The notes under the pieces: model-generated
Database searches by the model: none
What the model saw: the letters and a program-made list of their open reading frames with translations, nothing else
Told to the model about the DNA's origin: nothing
Shown here: piece after piece, positions 1,273-8,586 of the stretch
How positions within the stretch are numbered: the stretch's first letter is position 1
Layout: each line of letters begins with the position of its first letter
Position numbers and translations under genes: made by a program
From: Deltaproteobacteria bacterium
Lineage (GTDB): Bacteria; Desulfobacterota; Binatia; HRBIN30; JACQVA1
Length of the DNA: 64,000 nucleotides
Reading direction: 5' to 3'
Assembly: GCA_016178705.1 (NCBI GenBank)
Contig: JACOST010000013.1
Location: forward strand, 1-64,000

Positions 1273-1935
1273 TCAGTGGCCGCTGTGCCCGACGCCGAAC
1301 GCACGCAGCAGCGTCACCAACCCAAACGCAATCACCAGCCAACCCGACAAACGCGACAAGTATCCTCGAATGGACGGCCGAGCCAAGGCCCGCGTCGCGC
1401 CGACGGACAGCATCGCCGGCACGGTGCCGAGACCGAAACACAGCATCGTAAGCATGCCTTCGCCGATCGACGCCGTCGCTGCGGCGCGCGCGGCGAAGGC
1501 GTAGATCAACTGACACGGCAGAAACGCATTGAACACACCGAGCGCTAGCGGCGCCGCGGGTGATCGCGAGCGGATCACGCCACCGAGCACGCGACCGACG
1601 GTCGCCTGCGCCAACACTGCACCGCGCGTGGTGATGTGCGCCAGCACGCCGAGCACTTCGAGTCCCACCAGGATCATGAAGCCGCCGGCGACCAGCGCGA
1701 GCAGTTGCTCCGCCACATGCCCGGGACCACCGGCAACCATCCCCGCGCCGAGCGCTCCAGAGATTGCACCGATGAAGACGAGCGTGTTGAGCCGGCCGAG
1801 ATTGTAGAGCACTTGCCGTTGCAGATTGCGGCCGGGCGCGACCGCGGCCAGCGCGAGTGGAAATCCGCCGCACATACCGACGCAGTGCAGTGACGCGGCG
1901 AGTCCGCCCACGAAGATCGCAAGGTACCACGTCAC
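1273..1935 (-). CDS. TauE/SafE-family membrane protein (cbb3/copper-associated type)
   Basis: This 220-residue polytopic membrane protein has six or so hydrophobic helices. Residues 17-24 carry HCVGMCGG, the Cys-containing motif of the TauE/SafE (PF13386-type) proteins found beside ccoGHIS and copper ATPases, where they are thought to help copper supply to cytochrome oxidase. A second half begins near FNAFLPCQLIYAF, whose Cys-Pro fits the duplicated architecture. Its ATG overlaps the TGA of the upstream P-type ATPase (ATGA), so the two are translationally coupled. It is the last gene of the oxidase operon. The annotation as sulfite exporter should not be taken literally; the metal-handling role is inferred from position and motif. 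Confidence 0.8.
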   Translation of the reverse strand: MTWYLAIFVGGLAASLHCVGMCGGFPLALAAVAPGRNLQRQVLYNLGRLNTLVFIGAISGALGAGMVAGGPGHVAEQLLALVAGGFMILVGLEVLGVLAHITTRGAVLAQATVGRVLGGVIRSRSPAAPLALGVFNAFLPCQLIYAFAARAAATASIGEGMLTMLCFGLGTVPAMLSVGATRALARPSIRGYLSRLSGWLVIAFGLVTLLRAFGVGHSGH

Positions 1936-4040
1936 GAGACGTTCCCGTTGCGCAATCGGCGCGCGTTCGCCACCACGACGAAGCTACTGCCCAGCATCGC
2001 CAACGATGCCACCAACGGATTGAGGGCGCCGGTAACCGCGACGGCAAGCGCGGCTGCGTTGTAGGCAAACACCCAGAACAGATTCTGCCGGACGACTCGG
2101 CGCACGCGCCGTGCATAACCTAGCAACCACGGCACACGGCGCAGGTCGTCGCTCACGATGGCGACATCGGCCGTCATCCGAGTGAGGTCGGTGGCGCTTC
2201 CGATCGCAATCCCAATACCCGCCGCCGCCAGTGCCGGCGCGTCGTTGATGCCGTCACCCACCATGGCCGTCGCACCCTGCGGAGTCGCGCTACGAATGTG
2301 CGCCAGCTTGTCCTCCGGCAGCAGACCGAGCGCCGCTCGCATCGGCGCGATCAGACGCGGCACCACCGCCGCCGCCCGCACGTCGCCGGAGAGCAATCCG
2401 ACTTCGACCCCCAGGTCATTAAGAGCGGCGACCGCCGCCGGTGCCTCCGCCCGCACATCTTCCTCGAACACAAACCGGCCGAGCAATTGCTGCCCGCGCC
2501 ACAAGCACACCGTCGCGTCGTGCTGATCATCGAGACGCCCGAGTTCTTCGTGGGCGAAGCGGACGCAGCCGAGCGCGAGTGACTCGCCGTCAACGACACC
2601 ACCTACACCGCGCCCCGGTACAACTCGAATCGACCCGGCTTCGAGCAGCGGACAGTGCGCGGCTCGCGCGGCCTGGGTGATCGCCAGGGCGAGCGGATGC
2701 GTGAGCGCACCTTCCAATGCCGCAGCGCGGGCCAGCAGATCGTCGCGCGACAGCGCGACGCCGGGAGCCGGCTCGATCGCCACGAGACGCGGCACGCGTT
2801 GCGTGAGCGTGCCCGTCTTGTCGAAGAACACGCGCGCGACATCGGCCGCGCGTTCCAATGTCGGCGCGCTGCGCACGATGACGCCGTGGCGTGCCGCCGT
2901 CATCAGTCCTGTCCACACGGCCACCGGCGTCGCAATCCCGAGCCCGCACGGGCAGGCAACCACGAGGACGGCCAGGCCGACCAACACTCCGGTCTCAACG
3001 CCCGCCCGCATACTCCAGAACAGCATCGCGCCGGCAGCCATCACGATCACGATCGGCACCAACACCGCGGCAACGCGATCGGCAAGTCGCTCGGCTGGCG
3101 CGCGCTCACGACGGGCCGCTTCCAACAGCGCTGCGACACGCGCGGCCGCGCTCTCCGCGGCACGTGCGCTGACCCGCACGCGAAAGAGCCCATCGACACT
3201 GCACGTACCGCTCGCCACCGCGCTACCCGGCTCTTTCAGGATGGTGCGACTCTCGCCTGTCAACGCGCTCTCATCGACCCCGCCGGTGCCGTCGATCACC
3301 ACGCCATCAGTCGGAAACGCCTCGCCAGGCGTGACACGGACCACTTCACCGGCGCGCAACGCATCAACGGCGACGGCAGCGCTCACGCCCGCACGAATGC
3401 GCGTGGCAACCGCGGGCGCTGGCGCCAGCGTCGCACGGACGGCCGCGCCGGCTTCCGCCTTCGCGCGAGCTTCGAGATAGCGGCCGATCGTCACCAACAC
3501 GAGCAACATCGCCGCCGTGTCGAAGTACACCGCACCCCGTCCGGCGAGCGTGTTCGAGACCGACAGCGCATATGCCGCCGCGGTGCCGAGGACGATGAGC
3601 GCGTCGGTGTTGGCGCCGCCCTTGCGGAGCGCGCCGAGGGCGCCGCGCAGGATCGGCCACCCCAGCAACATCAGCACCGGCGCGGTCATCAGCATCGCCA
3701 GCACGCGCAGCACCTGAAACAGCGGACCATCGCTCGATCCGGCAGCGGTGCCGTACACATATGGCACGTAGGTCGGCATGCTCACCATCATCACGTTCAG
3801 CGCGAAGAAGATCGCGAGACCCAGTCGCACGAAGATGGCGCTCGCCGCACCGTGCTCGCCGGTGGCGCGCGTGACTTGCCACGCCAGCACGCAGCCGTAG
3901 CAACAGAAGCGCGACGGCGCGCCTTCGACTTCGCCGATGACCCAGCGCCGCCCGAGCGGCAAGCCGCAATGGGCGCAGTCGGCGGCCGTCTGCACGTCAC
4001 TGGTTGTGACCAACCGCTGTTCGATCACGACCGCGTTCAT
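1932..4040 (-). CDS. ccoI: Cu(+)-translocating P-type ATPase of cbb3 oxidase biogenesis, lacking the HMA domain
   Basis: This is a 702-residue P1B-type ATPase. At the N-terminus CAHC (22-25) and FCCYGC (45-50) form the metal-binding cap seen in CcoI/FixI. The usual GMxCxxC heavy-metal-associated domain that should follow is absent, and the chain goes straight into the membrane part. The rest is complete: TGES actuator loop, CPC in helix 6, DKTGT phosphorylation site, an HP (THPLA) in the nucleotide domain and GDGINDAP. The role would be copper export to the periplasm for assembly of the CcoN Cu-B site. I chose the ATG at 4040. An open frame continues to 4196, but its extra 52 residues are a translated palindromic repeat (VIPAEAGIQ). 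It is followed by the TauE-like gene with ATGA overlap. Confidence 0.92.
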   Translation of the reverse strand: MNAVVIEQRLVTTSDVQTAADCAHCGLPLGRRWVIGEVEGAPSRFCCYGCVLAWQVTRATGEHGAASAIFVRLGLAIFFALNVMMVSMPTYVPYVYGTAAGSSDGPLFQVLRVLAMLMTAPVLMLLGWPILRGALGALRKGGANTDALIVLGTAAAYALSVSNTLAGRGAVYFDTAAMLLVLVTIGRYLEARAKAEAGAAVRATLAPAPAVATRIRAGVSAAVAVDALRAGEVVRVTPGEAFPTDGVVIDGTGGVDESALTGESRTILKEPGSAVASGTCSVDGLFRVRVSARAAESAAARVAALLEAARRERAPAERLADRVAAVLVPIVIVMAAGAMLFWSMRAGVETGVLVGLAVLVVACPCGLGIATPVAVWTGLMTAARHGVIVRSAPTLERAADVARVFFDKTGTLTQRVPRLVAIEPAPGVALSRDDLLARAAALEGALTHPLALAITQAARAAHCPLLEAGSIRVVPGRGVGGVVDGESLALGCVRFAHEELGRLDDQHDATVCLWRGQQLLGRFVFEEDVRAEAPAAVAALNDLGVEVGLLSGDVRAAAVVPRLIAPMRAALGLLPEDKLAHIRSATPQGATAMVGDGINDAPALAAAGIGIAIGSATDLTRMTADVAIVSDDLRRVPWLLGYARRVRRVVRQNLFWVFAYNAAALAVAVTGALNPLVASLAMLGSSFVVVANARRLRNGNVS

Positions 4041-4080
4041 GAATTCATCCAGCCATGCATAGGAACCCTCGACAGCGGGT

Positions 4081-4158
4081 CCGTCATGCCGGCGTACGCC
4101 GGTATCCAGGCGGGGTGTCGGGGCACGAGCCTGGATTCCGGCTTCCGCCGGAATGACG
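4081..4158. repeat. Palindromic repeat family B (VIPAEAGIQ type), copy 1
   Basis: Two arms of about 29 bases, CCGTCATGCCGGCGTACGCC... at 4081-4110 and its near-complement ending GGAATGACG at 4130-4158, form a long imperfect hairpin. The element lies in the 181-base gap between the FixP-like anchor gene and ccoI, inside an otherwise overlapped operon, so it is transcribed and could fold in the mRNA. A second copy is at 8403-8479. Confidence 0.88.
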
Positions 4159-4221
4159 AAGGAGAGGGCGCTCGACTTCCATGCGAAGCGTTTCACCCGT
4201 CGCCTCTGCTCGACCGTCGCC

Positions 4222-4440
4222 TCACTCCATCAGATTGAGCATCAAGTAGGTCACGCCGAAGATGAAGAACGACAGCCACAACAGTCCGATCCACCACGGC
4301 GCCGGATTGCCTTCGTAGATGTGGAAGCGGCCGTCTTCGAGCGTCTGGTCGGGCCGCGACGCGGTGGCGGCGCTGGCTCCTGGCGGCGCGAGAATAGGGC
4401 CGGCACTCAGCGGTTCGGTGGAACCCGGTTCGTTAGCCAT
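4222..4440 (-). CDS. FixP/CcoP N-terminal-like membrane anchor protein
   Basis: This is a 72-residue protein. Residues 1-30 are a Pro/Ala-rich cytoplasmic stretch. Residues 36-70, EDGRFHIYEGNPAPWW then a single helix IGLLWLSFFIFGVTYLMLN, look like the FixP_N region of CcoP (a D/E-G-I-x-E-x-x-N-P-x-P-x-W-W motif followed by a membrane helix). In an ordinary cbb3 operon this domain is fused to a dihaem cytochrome c. Here it stands alone, and the dihaem part is a separate gene at 6807-7619. Its start overlaps the end of the preceding gene by 8 bases. A CcoQ/FixQ function is the alternative, but the NPxPWW motif favours the CcoP anchor. Confidence 0.7.
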   Translation of the reverse strand: MANEPGSTEPLSAGPILAPPGASAATASRPDQTLEDGRFHIYEGNPAPWWIGLLWLSFFIFGVTYLMLNLME

Positions 4441-4777
4441 GATGCGACCCCAGCTCTCCGCCGCGTTCGATCTCGCGATCGAGTTCGAGCATACGGAACT
4501 TTGGTTGCTCGACGTCGCGGAATTTTCCCGTCATCACCGCCCACAGCGTGAGAAACACGATGGGCAGCATGCCGATGAGATACACACCAACGGCGGCCGC
4601 ACCGAAACCCGCGATATCGTCGTTGACGATCGTCATCACGAACTCAGTCATCTTGTAGGTAAAGCCAAGGCCGGCGATCACCAACACCGCGACCGCAAAG
4701 CCGATCGTCACGATCGTTCTAAGGAGCGATTGATCGCCGCGCCTGCCGCGAATCGCTCTGAGTCGTCGCGTCGACAT
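4433..4777 (-). CDS. Small two-helix membrane protein of the oxidase operon, unknown
   Basis: This is a 114-residue protein. The ATG at 4777 overlaps the ccoO stop (ATGA). The frame is open further upstream, but only as an overprint of ccoO. A basic N-terminus (STRRLRAIRGRRG) is followed by two hydrophobic helices around residues 23-42 (IVTIGFAVAVLVIAGLGFTY) and 59-82, and then a charged C-terminal tail (LELDREIERGG). It sits where ccoQ normally lies, between ccoO and the CcoP part, but is twice the length of CcoQ and I recognise no family. A structural or assembly role in the oxidase is inferred from translational coupling only. Confidence 0.7.
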   Translation of the reverse strand: MSTRRLRAIRGRRGDQSLLRTIVTIGFAVAVLVIAGLGFTYKMTEFVMTIVNDDIAGFGAAAVGVYLIGMLPIVFLTLWAVMTGKFRDVEQPKFRMLELDREIERGGELGSHHG

Positions 4778-5412
4778 CACGAACCTCCTTGCAACGCGTC
4801 CACGTTGTAGATCGTGGCCGGCACTTGCGTGACCCAACTGCCGAGCCACTGCACGTAGGCCACCAACGCCAACCCGCGCTCGGTGGGTCGCCGCTGCTCG
4901 TCGAAGAACCACGGATACGCCGGCATCACTGAATAAGGCGCCACGCTGCGCGGATCGTAGAAGTGCGCGACATGCCAGTCGTTCGAGTGCTTGCCCGACT
5001 CGCGAATCAGATCGGGACCGACGCGCCGCGTGCCGAACAAGTGCGGCAGGTTCATCATGTTCTGGTATTCGCCGGGCTGCGATACCGGCCCGAAGCGCAG
5101 ATCTTCCTTCGAGACCGGCCGGACGAACTGCGAGTGGCAGTGCCAACACGCCTCGGCGATGTAGTTGGCCTTGCCGACCTCCAGCGCATGCGCGAAGCTC
5201 GTCGGGTTCACCTCACCGAAGTAACGCTTAAACTCGTCCGGATAGTCCTCCGCGAGCTGATGAAACTCGGGCGGAATGGTCTTGGCGATCTCCGCCACCG
5301 ACGCGATCGGCAACTTGCGCAGCGTGAGCACCGGCAGCAGCCCCTGCAAGACGAAGCCGAGCAAAAACGTCAGAACGCCGGCGATGAGGAAGCTCGCTCC
5401 GAATCGTTCCAT
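4777..5412 (-). CDS. ccoO: cbb3-type cytochrome c oxidase monohaem subunit
   Basis: This is a 211-residue CcoO/FixO. One N-terminal membrane anchor (residues 7-30) is followed by a periplasmic c-type domain with the haem site CWHCH (in ACWHCHSQFVRP) and the distal Met in VMPAYPWF. Other conserved parts are GPDLIRESGKHSNDWH and the Tyr-rich PRSVAPYSVMPAYPWF stretch. It passes electrons from the dihaem cytochrome to the CcoN catalytic subunit. It starts 3 bases after the ccoN stop and overlaps the next gene by ATGA. The length is typical of the family. Confidence 0.96.
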   Translation of the reverse strand: MERFGASFLIAGVLTFLLGFVLQGLLPVLTLRKLPIASVAEIAKTIPPEFHQLAEDYPDEFKRYFGEVNPTSFAHALEVGKANYIAEACWHCHSQFVRPVSKEDLRFGPVSQPGEYQNMMNLPHLFGTRRVGPDLIRESGKHSNDWHVAHFYDPRSVAPYSVMPAYPWFFDEQRRPTERGLALVAYVQWLGSWVTQVPATIYNVDALQGGS

Positions 5413-5415
5413 TCG

Positions 5416-6810
5416 TTACACCCGCTGCGCCACCGCGACCGCCGCCCGCGTGGCGAGCGTGCTCGGTTGCCGCGCCGTCGCCCACATCGCGTAGAAGAAC
5501 AGTCCTTGGCCGGCGATGATGAGCAAGCCGGCGACCGAGCGCACCCACCAAAACGGCATCGAGGCGACGACCGATTCGCCCCAGTGACTCAAGGCTGCCC
5601 AGCTAAAGCCCTGCACCAAGCCGGCCGCCGTCAAGTCGATCACCATCAGCACGAGCCCGATCAGCGTGAACCAGTAGTGCAGCGTCAACAGTTGCGGCGT
5701 CGCCCACGGCCGGCCGACCGCGCGCGGCCACAGCTCGATGATCAACCCCATGATCCAGAAACCGAACACGCCGAACATCACCATGTGTGCGTGCGCCACC
5801 ACCCAGTCGGTGAAGTGAATGATTTTCTGGAACGTCAGCGTGACCTGGAAGGCGCACTGGAAGCAGGTCAGCGCGTACATGATCATGCCGGTGTAGAACC
5901 AGCGAATGGCGAGGTTGCCGCGAATCGCGTCGGCGCGGCCGTGCAGCGTGCCGAAGAAGTTCACGATGACAGTGATGACGACGATCTCGACCGCGATGGT
6001 CGCCACCACTGCCCCGTACTGCGCGTACATCGGGATCGGGCTGTACAAGAAGTGATGTACGCCTTGCATCGGATAGAAGAACGCCAACCCCCAGAACCCG
6101 ATCAACGACAGCGCGTGGCTCCAGATCGGTTTGCGCAGCAGCAGCGGCACGAAGAAGTACATCAGGCCCCAACCGATTGGCGTGACGAACAGACCGACCA
6201 GATCGTGGATGAACAACCCGGTGATCGCCGCGCCCGCCGTGCCCGGTACCCAAAACTGCGGCAGGTAGTTGCCCATGAAGTAGACCAGGCCGGTCCACGC
6301 GAAGGCCGCGAGGAAATACCACAAGCTGACATACAGCCCCTGCTCCTGCGTGCGCAGGATGGGCGTCGCCAGGTTCGTCACCAGCAGCACCAAGCCGACA
6401 ATGATCAACGGGTCGACGAACATCGGCGTCTCGCCCCACTCGATCCCTTGCCCGTAGCCCAAGAGTTGTCCGCCAATGGTCAGCGTCATGAAGAGTTGCC
6501 ACGCGCCAAAGATGACCCAGCCGAGTCGATCCGAAAGAATCGGCTGGCGCGTCAGCCGCGGAATCGCGAACAGCATGCCGCCGATGAAGGCATTGGCGAT
6601 GAAACCATACGCCGCCATGTTGGTGTGGACCATGCGCACGCGTCCGGGCGACAGCCACTCGATGCCGCTGAGCGGATAGAGGTTGTTGAACTGCATTGCA
6701 TACGCGAGCCCACCGAGTAGCGAAGTCGCGAAGAACGCCATGCTCGCGATCAAGTGCCAGCGCACGAGATCGAAGTTGACCAGCGGACGCCGATCGACGG
6801 TTGCGATCAC
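5416..6810 (-). CDS. ccoN: cbb3-type cytochrome c oxidase catalytic subunit I
   Basis: This is a 464-residue subunit with about 12 transmembrane helices. Haem and Cu-B ligands are visible: the first His in MVHTNMAAYGF, the MQGVHHFLYSPIP pair of Cu-B histidines, and WVVAHAHMVMFG carrying the haem b3 and b ligands. It reduces O2 to water in the cytoplasmic membrane and pumps protons. I chose the GTG at 6810: it overlaps the stop of the upstream cytochrome gene (GTGA) and has GGAGGCG in front, whereas the open frame running on to 7062 only overprints the cytochrome gene. The order dihaem c, then N, then O differs from the usual ccoNOQP. Confidence 0.96.
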   Translation of the reverse strand: MIATVDRRPLVNFDLVRWHLIASMAFFATSLLGGLAYAMQFNNLYPLSGIEWLSPGRVRMVHTNMAAYGFIANAFIGGMLFAIPRLTRQPILSDRLGWVIFGAWQLFMTLTIGGQLLGYGQGIEWGETPMFVDPLIIVGLVLLVTNLATPILRTQEQGLYVSLWYFLAAFAWTGLVYFMGNYLPQFWVPGTAGAAITGLFIHDLVGLFVTPIGWGLMYFFVPLLLRKPIWSHALSLIGFWGLAFFYPMQGVHHFLYSPIPMYAQYGAVVATIAVEIVVITVIVNFFGTLHGRADAIRGNLAIRWFYTGMIMYALTCFQCAFQVTLTFQKIIHFTDWVVAHAHMVMFGVFGFWIMGLIIELWPRAVGRPWATPQLLTLHYWFTLIGLVLMVIDLTAAGLVQGFSWAALSHWGESVVASMPFWWVRSVAGLLIIAGQGLFFYAMWATARQPSTLATRAAVAVAQRV

Positions 6811-7619
6811 CTGGACGCCTCCTTTCCAGCTTCTGCAACGGGCGAATGATCGGTGGCGCGCAGCGACAGAATGTAAGACACCAAGTTCCACGCATCGCCG
6901 GCAAGGATGTTTTCGCCGTCCGGTTCGGCGAAGATGTCGGCGAATGACGGCATCGCCGTACCACCGACGCCGGTCATGAAGGTGCGGTAGACGTCTTGCG
7001 GCGTTGGCCCACTCTTGAGGCGCCCCTTGGTGAAGTCGAACGGCTTTTGCGCGTTGCCCCAACTGTCAGGCGGAAGGTTCTTGGCCGACAGCCCGTCGCC
7101 GCGCCCGCTTTCACCATGGCAGGCGGTGCATTCGAGCATGGTGTACAGCTCGCGTCCGCGCGCCACCGACGCGGGTGAGCCGAGTGCGGCCGGCGGCGGT
7201 GGAACGTAGATCGGCGTGCCGGCCCCGCGCGTCTTCCACTCCGGGAAGAAGCCCTTGATGTACTCGACCACCGCCAAGCGCTCGCGTTCGCTCAGCAACG
7301 ACCAATCGGGCATCGACGTGCGATACACCCCGCGGCTGACGATTCGATACAGATCTTCGTCGGTCGGCAGGGTTCCGCTCGGGGTCGAACGAAACTTGAA
7401 GATGCCCTTGGTGAAGTCGCGTGGCTTGACGAGCAGCATCGGCGCCGCGGCGCTGTTGCCGTCGCCGTTCACGCCGTGACAGCCGACGCAGTAGCGCGTG
7501 TAGATCGTCGCGCCTTCACCCTTGAGCGTGGCGACTTGATCATCGGCGCGGAGCGGCGCCGCGAACACCACGATCGCAATCCACATCAGTGTGGGCAGGG
7601 TGCCGAATCGCACGCGCAT
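6807..7619 (-). CDS. Dihaem cytochrome c of the cbb3 oxidase operon (CcoP-like periplasmic part)
   Basis: This is a 270-residue protein. A Sec signal or anchor at residues 8-25 (LPTLMWIAIVVFAAPLRA) precedes two cytochrome c domains with haem sites YCVGCHG and ECTACHG. Likely Met ligands are in TSMPDWSLLS and TAMPSF. The spacing matches the tandem domains of CcoP, but the CcoP N-terminal anchor is missing and found instead as a separate 72-residue gene at 4222-4440. It probably delivers electrons to CcoO. Its ATG at 7619 overlaps the stop of the preceding membrane gene and its TGA overlaps the ccoN start. It could also be a soluble electron donor and not a true subunit. Confidence 0.88.
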   Translation of the reverse strand: MRVRFGTLPTLMWIAIVVFAAPLRADDQVATLKGEGATIYTRYCVGCHGVNGDGNSAAAPMLLVKPRDFTKGIFKFRSTPSGTLPTDEDLYRIVSRGVYRTSMPDWSLLSERERLAVVEYIKGFFPEWKTRGAGTPIYVPPPPAALGSPASVARGRELYTMLECTACHGESGRGDGLSAKNLPPDSWGNAQKPFDFTKGRLKSGPTPQDVYRTFMTGVGGTAMPSFADIFAEPDGENILAGDAWNLVSYILSLRATDHSPVAEAGKEASR

Positions 7620-8269
7620 CACGTCACCGCCGGGCGATACGGCACGAAGCGAGCGAGCGGCTGCAGCACGCCGAGCGTCAGTCCGTAAATCAGGTGCGTC
7701 AACGCCGCGATCCAGACCGGCATCAGATTGAGGACGTATGGTTCGCCGACCAAGCGCGGCTGCAGCCACGACAGCACGAAGTAAAAATTGACCACCCACA
7801 TCAGCAACCCGTACAGCGCGCCGAGCGCGATCTGCTGCAGATAGGAACTCGGGAAGTAACGGCTGATGAAGACCTGAAACACCGCGCCCGCAGCCGCCCC
7901 GACCGAGAAGTGCGCGACCGCAACCAACATGAAGAAGTTGAGATCCTCGGTGGTCAGCGCCTTGGCCCCGAGGAAGGCGGTGCCGTAGACGCGCAGGAAC
8001 AGCAGCGGGTCCTGATTGACCATCAAGGACCCGATGACATGGAAGGCGAAACTGGTGACGCTGCCGACAATGCCGAGCGTGGTGCCGGCGACCAGATAGA
8101 AGGTCAGGTAGAACCCGGTCGGCGGCCACGTGCGGCCGGTCGGGACCGTCAGCCGTGCTTCCAGGTCGGCAATGGCCACCCGATGGTCCTCGATCTCCCG
8201 CAGAATGTCTTCCCGCCCCGCCATGAGTCGCAGCACCGGATCGCAAGCGACATGCCACGGCCGTACCAA
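7619..8269 (-). CDS. Polytopic membrane protein heading the cbb3 oxidase operon, unknown
   Basis: This is a 216-residue protein (201 if it starts at the ATG at 8224, which gives MAGREDILREIE and may be the true start). A short charged coiled segment (residues 16-42) precedes about five hydrophobic helices, including YLTFYLVAGTTLGIVGSVTSFAF, FFMLVAVAHFSVGAAAGAVFQVF and IALGALYGLLMWVVNFYFVLSW. I recognise no named family. It is the first gene of the operon and is ATGA-coupled to the dihaem cytochrome, so a role in oxidase assembly or as an extra subunit is plausible but inferred. Confidence 0.75.
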   Translation of the reverse strand: MVRPWHVACDPVLRLMAGREDILREIEDHRVAIADLEARLTVPTGRTWPPTGFYLTFYLVAGTTLGIVGSVTSFAFHVIGSLMVNQDPLLFLRVYGTAFLGAKALTTEDLNFFMLVAVAHFSVGAAAGAVFQVFISRYFPSSYLQQIALGALYGLLMWVVNFYFVLSWLQPRLVGEPYVLNLMPVWIAALTHLIYGLTLGVLQPLARFVPYRPAVT

Positions 8270-8586
8270 GTTGTAGCTATCGCTCGCCGCATCAGCCCCG
8301 ATCGTCCAATTACTGCGAGTGGGAACGCCGAGCGTGCGGTACTCGCGCGCGCGCGAAACCTCAACGCGGGAGGCTCTTCACAAGAGCGCCGACATCCCCA
8401 CTCGTCATTCCGGCGAAAGCCGGAATCCAGGATCGCGCCCCGTCCCCCCGCCTGGATGCCGGCTTTCGCCGGCATGACGGACGCGTTGCGTGGATCTCTG
8501 GTGCAAGCCAACTCGGGGTATGGCTCGCTCGCATCGTTCAACAAGCGCTTGACGATGGAGACGGAACTCGCGATCTTCATCAGGGC
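8270..8586. other. Divergent intergenic region with a palindromic repeat
   Basis: This gap of 317 bases lies between the oxidase operon (leftward) and a GNAT-type gene (rightward). It contains palindromic repeat family B copy 2 (8403-8479). I found no FNR-like TTGAT-N4-ATCAA box and no convincing -35/-10 pair. The minus-strand ORF through it is a translation of the repeat. Confidence 0.6.
8403..8479. repeat. Palindromic repeat family B, copy 2
   Basis: The arms are 8403-8431 (CGTCATTCCGGCGAAAGCCG... ) and 8451-8479 (its near-perfect complement ending GGCATGACG). Each arm is itself palindromic around CCGGCGAAAGCCGG. This is the widespread proteobacterial repeat whose translation reads MPAKAGIQ/VIPAEAGIQ. 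Confidence 0.9.

Follow-up and report, generated by a model that had tools for sequence, protein, structure and literature searches.

In a 64,000-nucleotide (nt) stretch at the start of contig JACOST010000013.1 from a Deltaproteobacteria bacterium of the class Binatia (hereafter the window), a cluster of six tightly packed genes on the minus strand, in the order A, dihaem gene B, CcoN, CcoO, E and F, appears to encode a C-family (cbb3-type) O2 reductase whose third subunit would consist of a soluble dihaem cytochrome and a separate FixP_N anchor. We assign this reading, which we base on sequence comparison, a probability of about 0.72. Downstream of F the cluster is extended by a gene for a CcoI-like copper ATPase and then one for a DsbD_2 protein. 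A first-pass annotation, made from the letters of the window alone, had called this a cbb3 oxidase operon, and the six genes, together with a gene order that recurs in related loci more than by chance, bear this out. The genes are, in the order of transcription (aa, amino acids):

7619-8224, minus strand: A, a 201-aa protein with an N-terminal helix (probable coiled coil) and about four membrane helices; no Pfam match over cut-off
6807-7619, minus strand: B, a periplasmic dihaem cytochrome c with a signal peptide and no further membrane helix seen; PF00034 3.7e-19, PF13442 1e-18
5416-6810, minus strand: CcoN-like catalytic subunit of a divergent C-family oxidase, GTG start; PF00115 4e-58, TIGR00780 184 bits
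4777-5412, minus strand: CcoO-like monohaem cytochrome c; PF02433 7e-34 (over cut-off), TIGR00781 106 bits
4433-4777, minus strand: E, a 114-aa CcoS-like protein that, by eye, has one more membrane helix at its N-terminus; PF03597 below cut-off (E 0.0057)
4222-4440, minus strand: F, a 72-aa single-helix protein, FixP_N-like, the putative stand-alone CcoP anchor; PF14715 14.1 bits (below cut-off), hhalign 90.9% for its family against FixP_N
1932-4040, minus strand: CcoI-like copper P-type ATPase, presumably for assembly; TIGR01511 416.6 bits (cut-off 397)
1273-1935, minus strand: DsbD_2/TauE-like membrane protein (CcoH2-like), presumably for assembly; PF13386 2.4e-41

A separate anchor and a separate dihaem cytochrome

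A genome scan with CcoN yielded 57 related loci. The nearest (79-85% identity) stand in records titled Deltaproteobacteria, Candidatus Binatia or bacterium, and the others (48-75%) in records titled Planctomycetota, Phycisphaeraceae, Nitrospinota, Methylomirabilota, Latescibacterota and others; most of these genomes are metagenome-assembled, and such titles can be wrong. When the window proteins were used as phmmer queries, B and CcoO were each matched in 54 of the 57 loci; the counts for E, CcoI, F and A were 53, 48, 24 and 16. The three loci without B (L051, L086 and L087) begin at or inside CcoN. Iterated hidden Markov models (HMMs) found F in 52 loci, in all of which the gene ends follow the order CcoN, CcoO, E, F, with the end of F at most 450 nt from E. 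With a further locus that holds a weak match in place (L059, E 0.0043), F follows the CcoS-like gene in 53 of the 53 loci that reach that far; in the remaining four (L053, L084, L085 and L088) the contigs end before its place. The survey of gene order in related genomes that the first-pass annotation had proposed thus finds the order CcoN, CcoO, E, F again and again. On the ground of this conserved place we rejected the possibility that F is a chance open reading frame (ORF); its ratio of nonsynonymous to synonymous changes (pN/pS), 0.55 over 12 window pairs and uncorrected for saturation, is a weak filter. A CcoN match at E ≤ 1e-30 occurs in 24 of the 118 genomes of the class to which the window belongs: 16 at 59% identity or more (window included), one of a fusion type at 35% and seven at 27-30%. 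From the 17 nearer genomes we took 15, leaving aside the window's own and G514 (several appear to be the same genomes as those of L032-L051), and in their neighbourhoods F was found by HMM in 12 and weakly in place in two (L210, E 0.001; L211, E 0.02), while the F of the fusion type (L213) was matched by an HMM built from Nitrospinota sequences (1e-5).

Two comparisons tie this small protein to the membrane anchor of CcoP. In a Pfam survey of 47 of the 53 F sequences, FixP_N was the commonest family, matched by 15 of the 47 at E ≤ 1 with a best value of 1.1e-5, followed by SLC3A2_N (8, best 0.039) and CrgA (7, best 7.5e-4). FixQ was absent from the ten families listed at that threshold, no profile comparison with CcoQ being made, and an identification of F as FixQ was rejected for this reason. 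Profile-profile comparison with hhalign, in which 53 F sequences (52 loci and the window) were set against 39 FixP_N sequences, gave a probability of 90.9% overall, 90.5% for the Binatia-like subset and 96.7% for four sequences around the Nitrospinota locus L048 (L043, L044, L048 and L049), and the NPxPWW motif and the helix of F aligned in register with those of FixP_N. Thirty-six of the 39 references share their reading frame with CxxCH; the set includes one stand-alone protein (L102) and two proteins without CxxCH in frame (L150 and L153). None of 16 control comparisons (12 with shuffled columns, two reversed, one of E with FixP_N and one of F with E) exceeded 14.5%. The profile-profile result clearly supports F as a FixP_N homologue; the homology, over one helix, is short. 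F is also the best FixP_N match in its 6.1 Mb genome (E 0.169), which says little, since 12 of 14 control genomes also contain a match at E ≤ 10.

Stand-alone FixP_N proteins that do exceed the Pfam cut-off stand beside a divergent CcoN in G083 (26.5 bits) and G297 (29.2 bits). Further cases come from fused oxidases. In the phylum of L048, the CcoN of S. meliloti matched in 6 of 77 genomes, five times as a fusion of 933-949 aa and once unfused (G161). Directly downstream of all five fusions lies a gene for a protein of 60-70 aa (counted from the first ATG) with one hydrophobic helix; as a set, these five score 96.9% against FixP_N and 95.9% against F, and all five carry G[IVL]RE aligned with the canonical GIxE. 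A separate anchor beside a fused haem module is found in five of five Nitrospinota fusions, in both rhizobia discussed below and in G297; judging from the genes, it is the haem module that changes places, and the anchor remains a gene of its own.

Other arrangements were seen as well. Loci L109/L171 and L110 (G083 and G134) belong to another divergent cbb3 type. In it the stand-alone FixP_N protein is about 100 aa long and has two hydrophobic stretches, the CcoO ORF contains two CxxCH, and a monohaem cytochrome is encoded separately. On a plasmid of P. aromaticivorans (L093, 5947-6534), an NPVPW anchor and a single haem c domain are joined in one protein adjoining CcoN and CcoO; it is the only plasmid match of F (E 0.4, not significant alone) and could possibly be a link between anchor and CcoP.

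The haem-bearing part has a different background. B contains two CxxCH motifs 120 residues apart, a spacing kept in near relatives and rising to 164 in some Planctomycetota, unlike the 88-95 found in the three two-haem CcoPs that we measured. Its N-terminus reads by eye as a signal peptide (MRVRFGTLPTLMWIAIVVFAAPLRA-DD); near relatives have Sec-type signal peptides, and several Planctomycetota loci have lipobox-like N-termini (again by eye). Against TIGR00782, the CcoP model, B scores 38.5 bits (cut-off 179.95). Its nearest relative in the PDB is 6h5l_B (176.5 bits over residues 34-253, against 22.9 bits for a CcoP), which is entered as a 'conserved hypothetical cytochrome protein' and is, in the anammox organism Kuenenia, the dihaem partner of an HAO-like enzyme, a soluble multihaem protein and no oxidase. 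Passages of two papers describe kustc0457 as a partner of an HAO-like enzyme (PMC6423088, PMC11897245). In phmmer comparisons B matched the module located after CcoO in S. meliloti (157 bits), G297 (118 bits) and P. fungorum (69 bits) as well as a Nitrospinota CcoN-CcoO fusion (169 bits), and only one of three CcoPs, at 12 bits; by HMM the module is also present in Rhizobium sp. 007, fused to CcoO, and in all five Nitrospinota fusions.

The first-pass annotation had seen in F and B a CcoP split into two genes. For the anchor half this holds up, given the FixP_N homology by hhalign, the conserved place and the lack of a genomic CcoP over the cut-off, but for the haem half it does not. Because of the spacing of 120, the nearest solved relative and the fusion of the module to CcoO elsewhere, the haem half does not seem to be simply a piece of CcoP; it looks like a separately recruited module rather than the other half of a broken CcoP. 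As a description, 'split CcoP' fits the presumed function well and the descent poorly. Oxidases and nitrogen enzymes may have this haem module in common.

A complete CcoP elsewhere in the genome would have spoken against a split, as the first-pass annotation recognized. In the 6.1 Mb assembly, which is 98% complete, no CcoP exceeds the TIGR00782 cut-off, the best match reaching 43.3 bits and spanning just positions 110-282 of the model, and the best FixP_N match is F itself, so we rejected a CcoP encoded elsewhere. One other gene matches TIGR00780, weakly (40.5 bits); it belongs to a pair of additional COX1 genes (PF00115, 506-509 bits) that are presumably A-family. Among 40 genomes of relatives from the 57 loci, whose completeness is unstated, there was likewise no CcoP over the cut-off, and no CcoQ was recognized in the operon with Pfam and NCBIfam models.

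The divergent catalytic core and the accessory genes

The description of CcoN and CcoO as canonical proved wrong: both fall under the cut-offs of their equivalog models, CcoN far under with 184 bits against 583 for TIGR00780 and CcoO with 106 bits against 200.65 for TIGR00781. Despite these scores both are members of the wider Pfam families, CcoO belonging to the FixO family (PF02433, 117.7 bits, cut-off 29.6). A tree of 81 CcoN rows and one A-family row places the window and its relatives, a clade of 53 rows, on one side of a branch (support 100/99). This clade joins S. meliloti, Rhizobium sp. 007, G297 and P. fungorum (100/98), and the 17 canonical rows lie outside that group. The fragments L084-L088 were left out of the tree and of the column counts, and L096, unmatched by the CcoN HMM, was dropped. 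The root of this tree is untrustworthy, the A-family branch having a length of 10, and the program flagged the long branch of P. fungorum.

The haem and CuB ligands His60, His207, His257, His258, His345 and His347 (P. stutzeri numbering throughout) and Tyr251 are kept in all 53 CcoNs of the clade, the window included, and so are four replacements, W203G, N208D, H243G and E323Q. Trp203 and Glu323 are present in 17 of 17 canonical rows. W203G is shared by the four fusion rows and by none of five other divergent rows (L171, L110, L112, L113 and P. aromaticivorans); E323Q occurs in all nine. The loss of W203 reported from N. gracilis and Sinorhizobium therefore marks a whole clade, with records of several phyla. 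Two further CcoN-CcoO fusions, beside a FixP_N/haem gene, lie on the minus strand in genomes G320 and G363 from the phylum of G158 (L173, 5129-7408; L174, 5175-7481). In their CcoN the alignment shows His60, His207, Tyr251, His257 and His347 replaced and Glu323 kept, on a very long branch (3.35), and if the alignment holds these proteins are possibly non-oxidase or inactive.

The genes are closely coupled, with 1-nt TGATG overlaps at the A/B and CcoO/E junctions, a 4-nt GTGA overlap between B and CcoN, an 8-nt overlap between E and F and a 3-nt gap between CcoN and CcoO; the ATGA overlaps that had been proposed for the membrane-protein genes were not found, no junction being literally ATGA. 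Nor does the earlier placing of the small anchor gene stand in full, as it is parted from CcoO by E. The dihaem cytochrome does have the signal peptide proposed for it (by eye).

For A, the ATG at 8224 is the likeliest start, judged from the starts of its homologues, rather than the TTG at 8269 to which the ORF extends. Neither Pfam (no match over cut-off) nor NCBIfam nor a fold comparison with the PDB (best match E 0.74) gave A a known family or fold, despite a confident AlphaFold2 model (mean predicted local distance difference test score 89.3). The N-terminal helix of A looks cytoplasmic, and the 16 loci with a homologue, which lies near the dihaem gene, are Binatia-like or belong to some of the Planctomycetota. 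E reaches 16.8 bits against the FixS/CcoS family PF03597 (cut-off 23.1), and an HMM of the E family matches an annotated CcoS (L094, 6e-5) and unannotated CcoS-like ORFs (down to 3e-11); being CcoS-like, it is probably an assembly factor. The six-gene cluster is flanked by an imperfect palindrome of 87 nt in two inverted copies (89%), at 4073-4159 and 8402-8488; the palindrome is a dispersed repeat with about 40 sites in the genome (77 matches, most sites being matched on both strands).

Proposed mechanism and rival explanations

From the genes, their order, their homologies, the conserved ligands and the lack of a genomic CcoP over the cut-off, we infer how the proteins would form a complex, where they would touch, what the enzyme would do and what part the anchor might have in proton transfer. 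The operon would encode an O2-reducing cbb3 (C-family) terminal oxidase of a divergent clade together with assembly factors. By analogy with canonical cbb3 enzymes, electrons would pass from a donor cytochrome to dihaem B and CcoO, on to haem b and finally to the haem b3-CuB centre of CcoN. The soluble dihaem cytochrome would dock from the periplasm, most likely on CcoO, and the single-helix anchor would pack against CcoN and complete the membrane part of the enzyme as a structural helix and probably as the cytoplasmic mouth of a proton path. The job of the anchor is probably not to tether haems, because it is separate even in enzymes that unite CcoN, CcoO and the dihaem part in a single chain. 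In canonical cbb3 the FixP_N helix forms the cytoplasmic mouth of the proton path, and Lee, Gennis and Adelroth reportedly located proton entry, in 2011, at a glutamate just before that helix. In R. capsulatus, a passage of PMC7876108 lists the CcoP helix and helices 8 and 9 of CcoN at the supercomplex interface.

Several observations weigh against this reading. On its own, the F of the window gives 14.1 bits with FixP_N (E 0.038), below the Pfam cut-off of 24.9, so that the HMM search proposed in the first-pass annotation returns the expected family as the best one but under its threshold. The hhalign probability is just 71% for loci L050 and up, which are mostly Planctomycetota. A profile search of the F family against PDB sequences, CcoP chains included, gave chance matches only, a result that speaks against the link; the connection between F and FixP_N rests on the Pfam family survey and hhalign. 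In the P. fungorum locus a search for the anchor found none (best E 0.23). One relative, G185, contains a canonical CcoN-CcoO-CcoP operon on a 4.1 kb contig, with a CcoP of 138 bits cut by the contig end; a second cbb3 can thus coexist, unless this contig is a binning error. Lastly, the glutamate of G[IVP]xE is present in 37 of 39 FixP_N references, and an acid 4-7 residues before the invariant proline in only 34 of the 53 F proteins of the clade, so that a proton-entry role of the anchor is without support from strict conservation. The replacement of H243 and E323 in CcoN also counts against the strict version of proton entry, and these changes together with the patchy acid suggest that the proton path may be rebuilt.

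Of the other explanations, the one we take most seriously, at perhaps one chance in four, leaves F in the oxidase and removes B: B would serve in the periplasm as a free carrier or donor of electrons, and the anchor, CcoN and CcoO would suffice for the oxidase. The signal peptide and the lack of a membrane helix in near relatives (by eye) agree with this, as does the nearest solved relative, 6h5l_B, itself a partner cytochrome. Against it, the module is covalently joined to CcoO or CcoN-CcoO in P. fungorum, the rhizobia, G297 and the five Nitrospinota fusions, bears a lipobox-like N-terminus in several Planctomycetota loci (by eye) and accompanies CcoN in 54 of 57 loci (phmmer), the other three beginning at or inside CcoN. 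We consider it unlikely that F is instead an assembly or stability factor, CcoQ-like or another small membrane protein, which serves biogenesis outside the working enzyme. Such a role would suit a single helix encoded between a CcoS-like gene and CcoI, in an operon where no CcoQ is recognized, and would explain why its acidic residue is not strictly conserved; yet no Pfam family is matched more often than FixP_N (15 of 47) or with a better E-value, FixQ is not among the families listed, NPxPWW and the helix lie in register with FixP_N, and in the Nitrospinota copies G[IVL]RE stands opposite the canonical GIxE in the alignment.

An enzyme that chiefly reduces NO or another acceptor, through its altered active-site surroundings (W203G, E323Q), seems to us improbable. 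In its favour, the clade-wide changes adjoin CuB ligands and affect the helix that carries Glu323, and the dihaem module resembles 6h5l_B, a part of an anammox nitrogen enzyme. NO reduction by canonical cbb3 enzymes is described in a passage of PMC8780969. Against it, the three CuB histidines and the cross-link tyrosine are kept, and the cluster includes a copper ATPase. NorB carries a glutamate four residues after the first CuB histidine; in the clade this residue is Gly or Ala as in cbb3. We retain the oxygen reductase with a two-protein third subunit as the preferred reading. A wider proposal, which we put forward tentatively and would not back at even odds, is that CcoP in truth comprises two subunits: the FixP_N helix would be an obligatory, haem-free membrane subunit of C-family oxidases, with a role in structure and proton entry, and the haem part would be exchangeable, occurring alone, joined to CcoO, joined to CcoN-CcoO or, in the canonical case, joined to FixP_N; the stand-alone anchor might then be the older state and canonical CcoP a later fusion.

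Significance and comparison with known systems

These loci amount to a natural experiment on the job of the CcoP anchor, which here stands apart from the haems and is kept in all clade loci that reach its place, with one exception to its retention among the sister lineages, P. fungorum. That the separate arrangement of anchor and haems recurs in several phyla points to a job of the anchor beyond holding haems. Such an anchor is easily overlooked, the window copy being under the Pfam cut-off and the S. meliloti copy being annotated as a hypothetical protein. Among the best matches of a literature search we found no description of a stand-alone FixP_N, although the account of cbb3 evolution by Ducluzeau, Ouchane and Nitschke (2008) may mention one, and the main text of the Binatota paper (PMC8262859) has no passage on cbb3, terminal oxidase or cytochrome c oxidase.

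Among the closest described systems is the fused CcoNOP of N. gracilis, given in a passage of PMC3578206 as a protein of 954 aa with 13 predicted helices in its N-terminal part and with W203G, common to S. meliloti SM11. It resembles the window in this replacement and in the succession of CcoO and two haem c sites, and differs in that CcoN, CcoO and the dihaem part are one protein there and three genes here. The consulted passages of PMC3578206 mention no separate anchor, whereas the Nitrospinota fusions of similar size described above (933-949 aa), among which N. gracilis itself was not identified, have one, a candidate for the anchor seemingly missing from the fused oxidase of Nitrospina-type organisms. 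With the canonical CcoNOQP/FixNOQP enzymes (e.g. R. leguminosarum, L092) the window shares the catalytic ligands, a FixO-type CcoO, a FixP_N-like helix and a CcoI-type ATPase, but CcoP is one polypeptide there (FixP_N with one or two haems) and is represented by separate genes here; haem spacing, the lack of a recognized CcoQ and the replacements W203G, N208D, H243G and E323Q also set the window apart. 6h5l_B is homologous to B over residues 34-253 and differs in being the partner of a soluble multihaem enzyme and not of an oxidase. The second cbb3-type oxidase of S. meliloti R14 and Rhizobium sp. 007 (L090 and L091) is alike in belonging to the larger CcoN clade (100/98) and in having the dihaem module, a separate anchor (74 aa in S. 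meliloti), a CcoS-like gene, DsbD_2 and CcoI, and it differs in that the dihaem module is fused to the C-terminus of CcoO.

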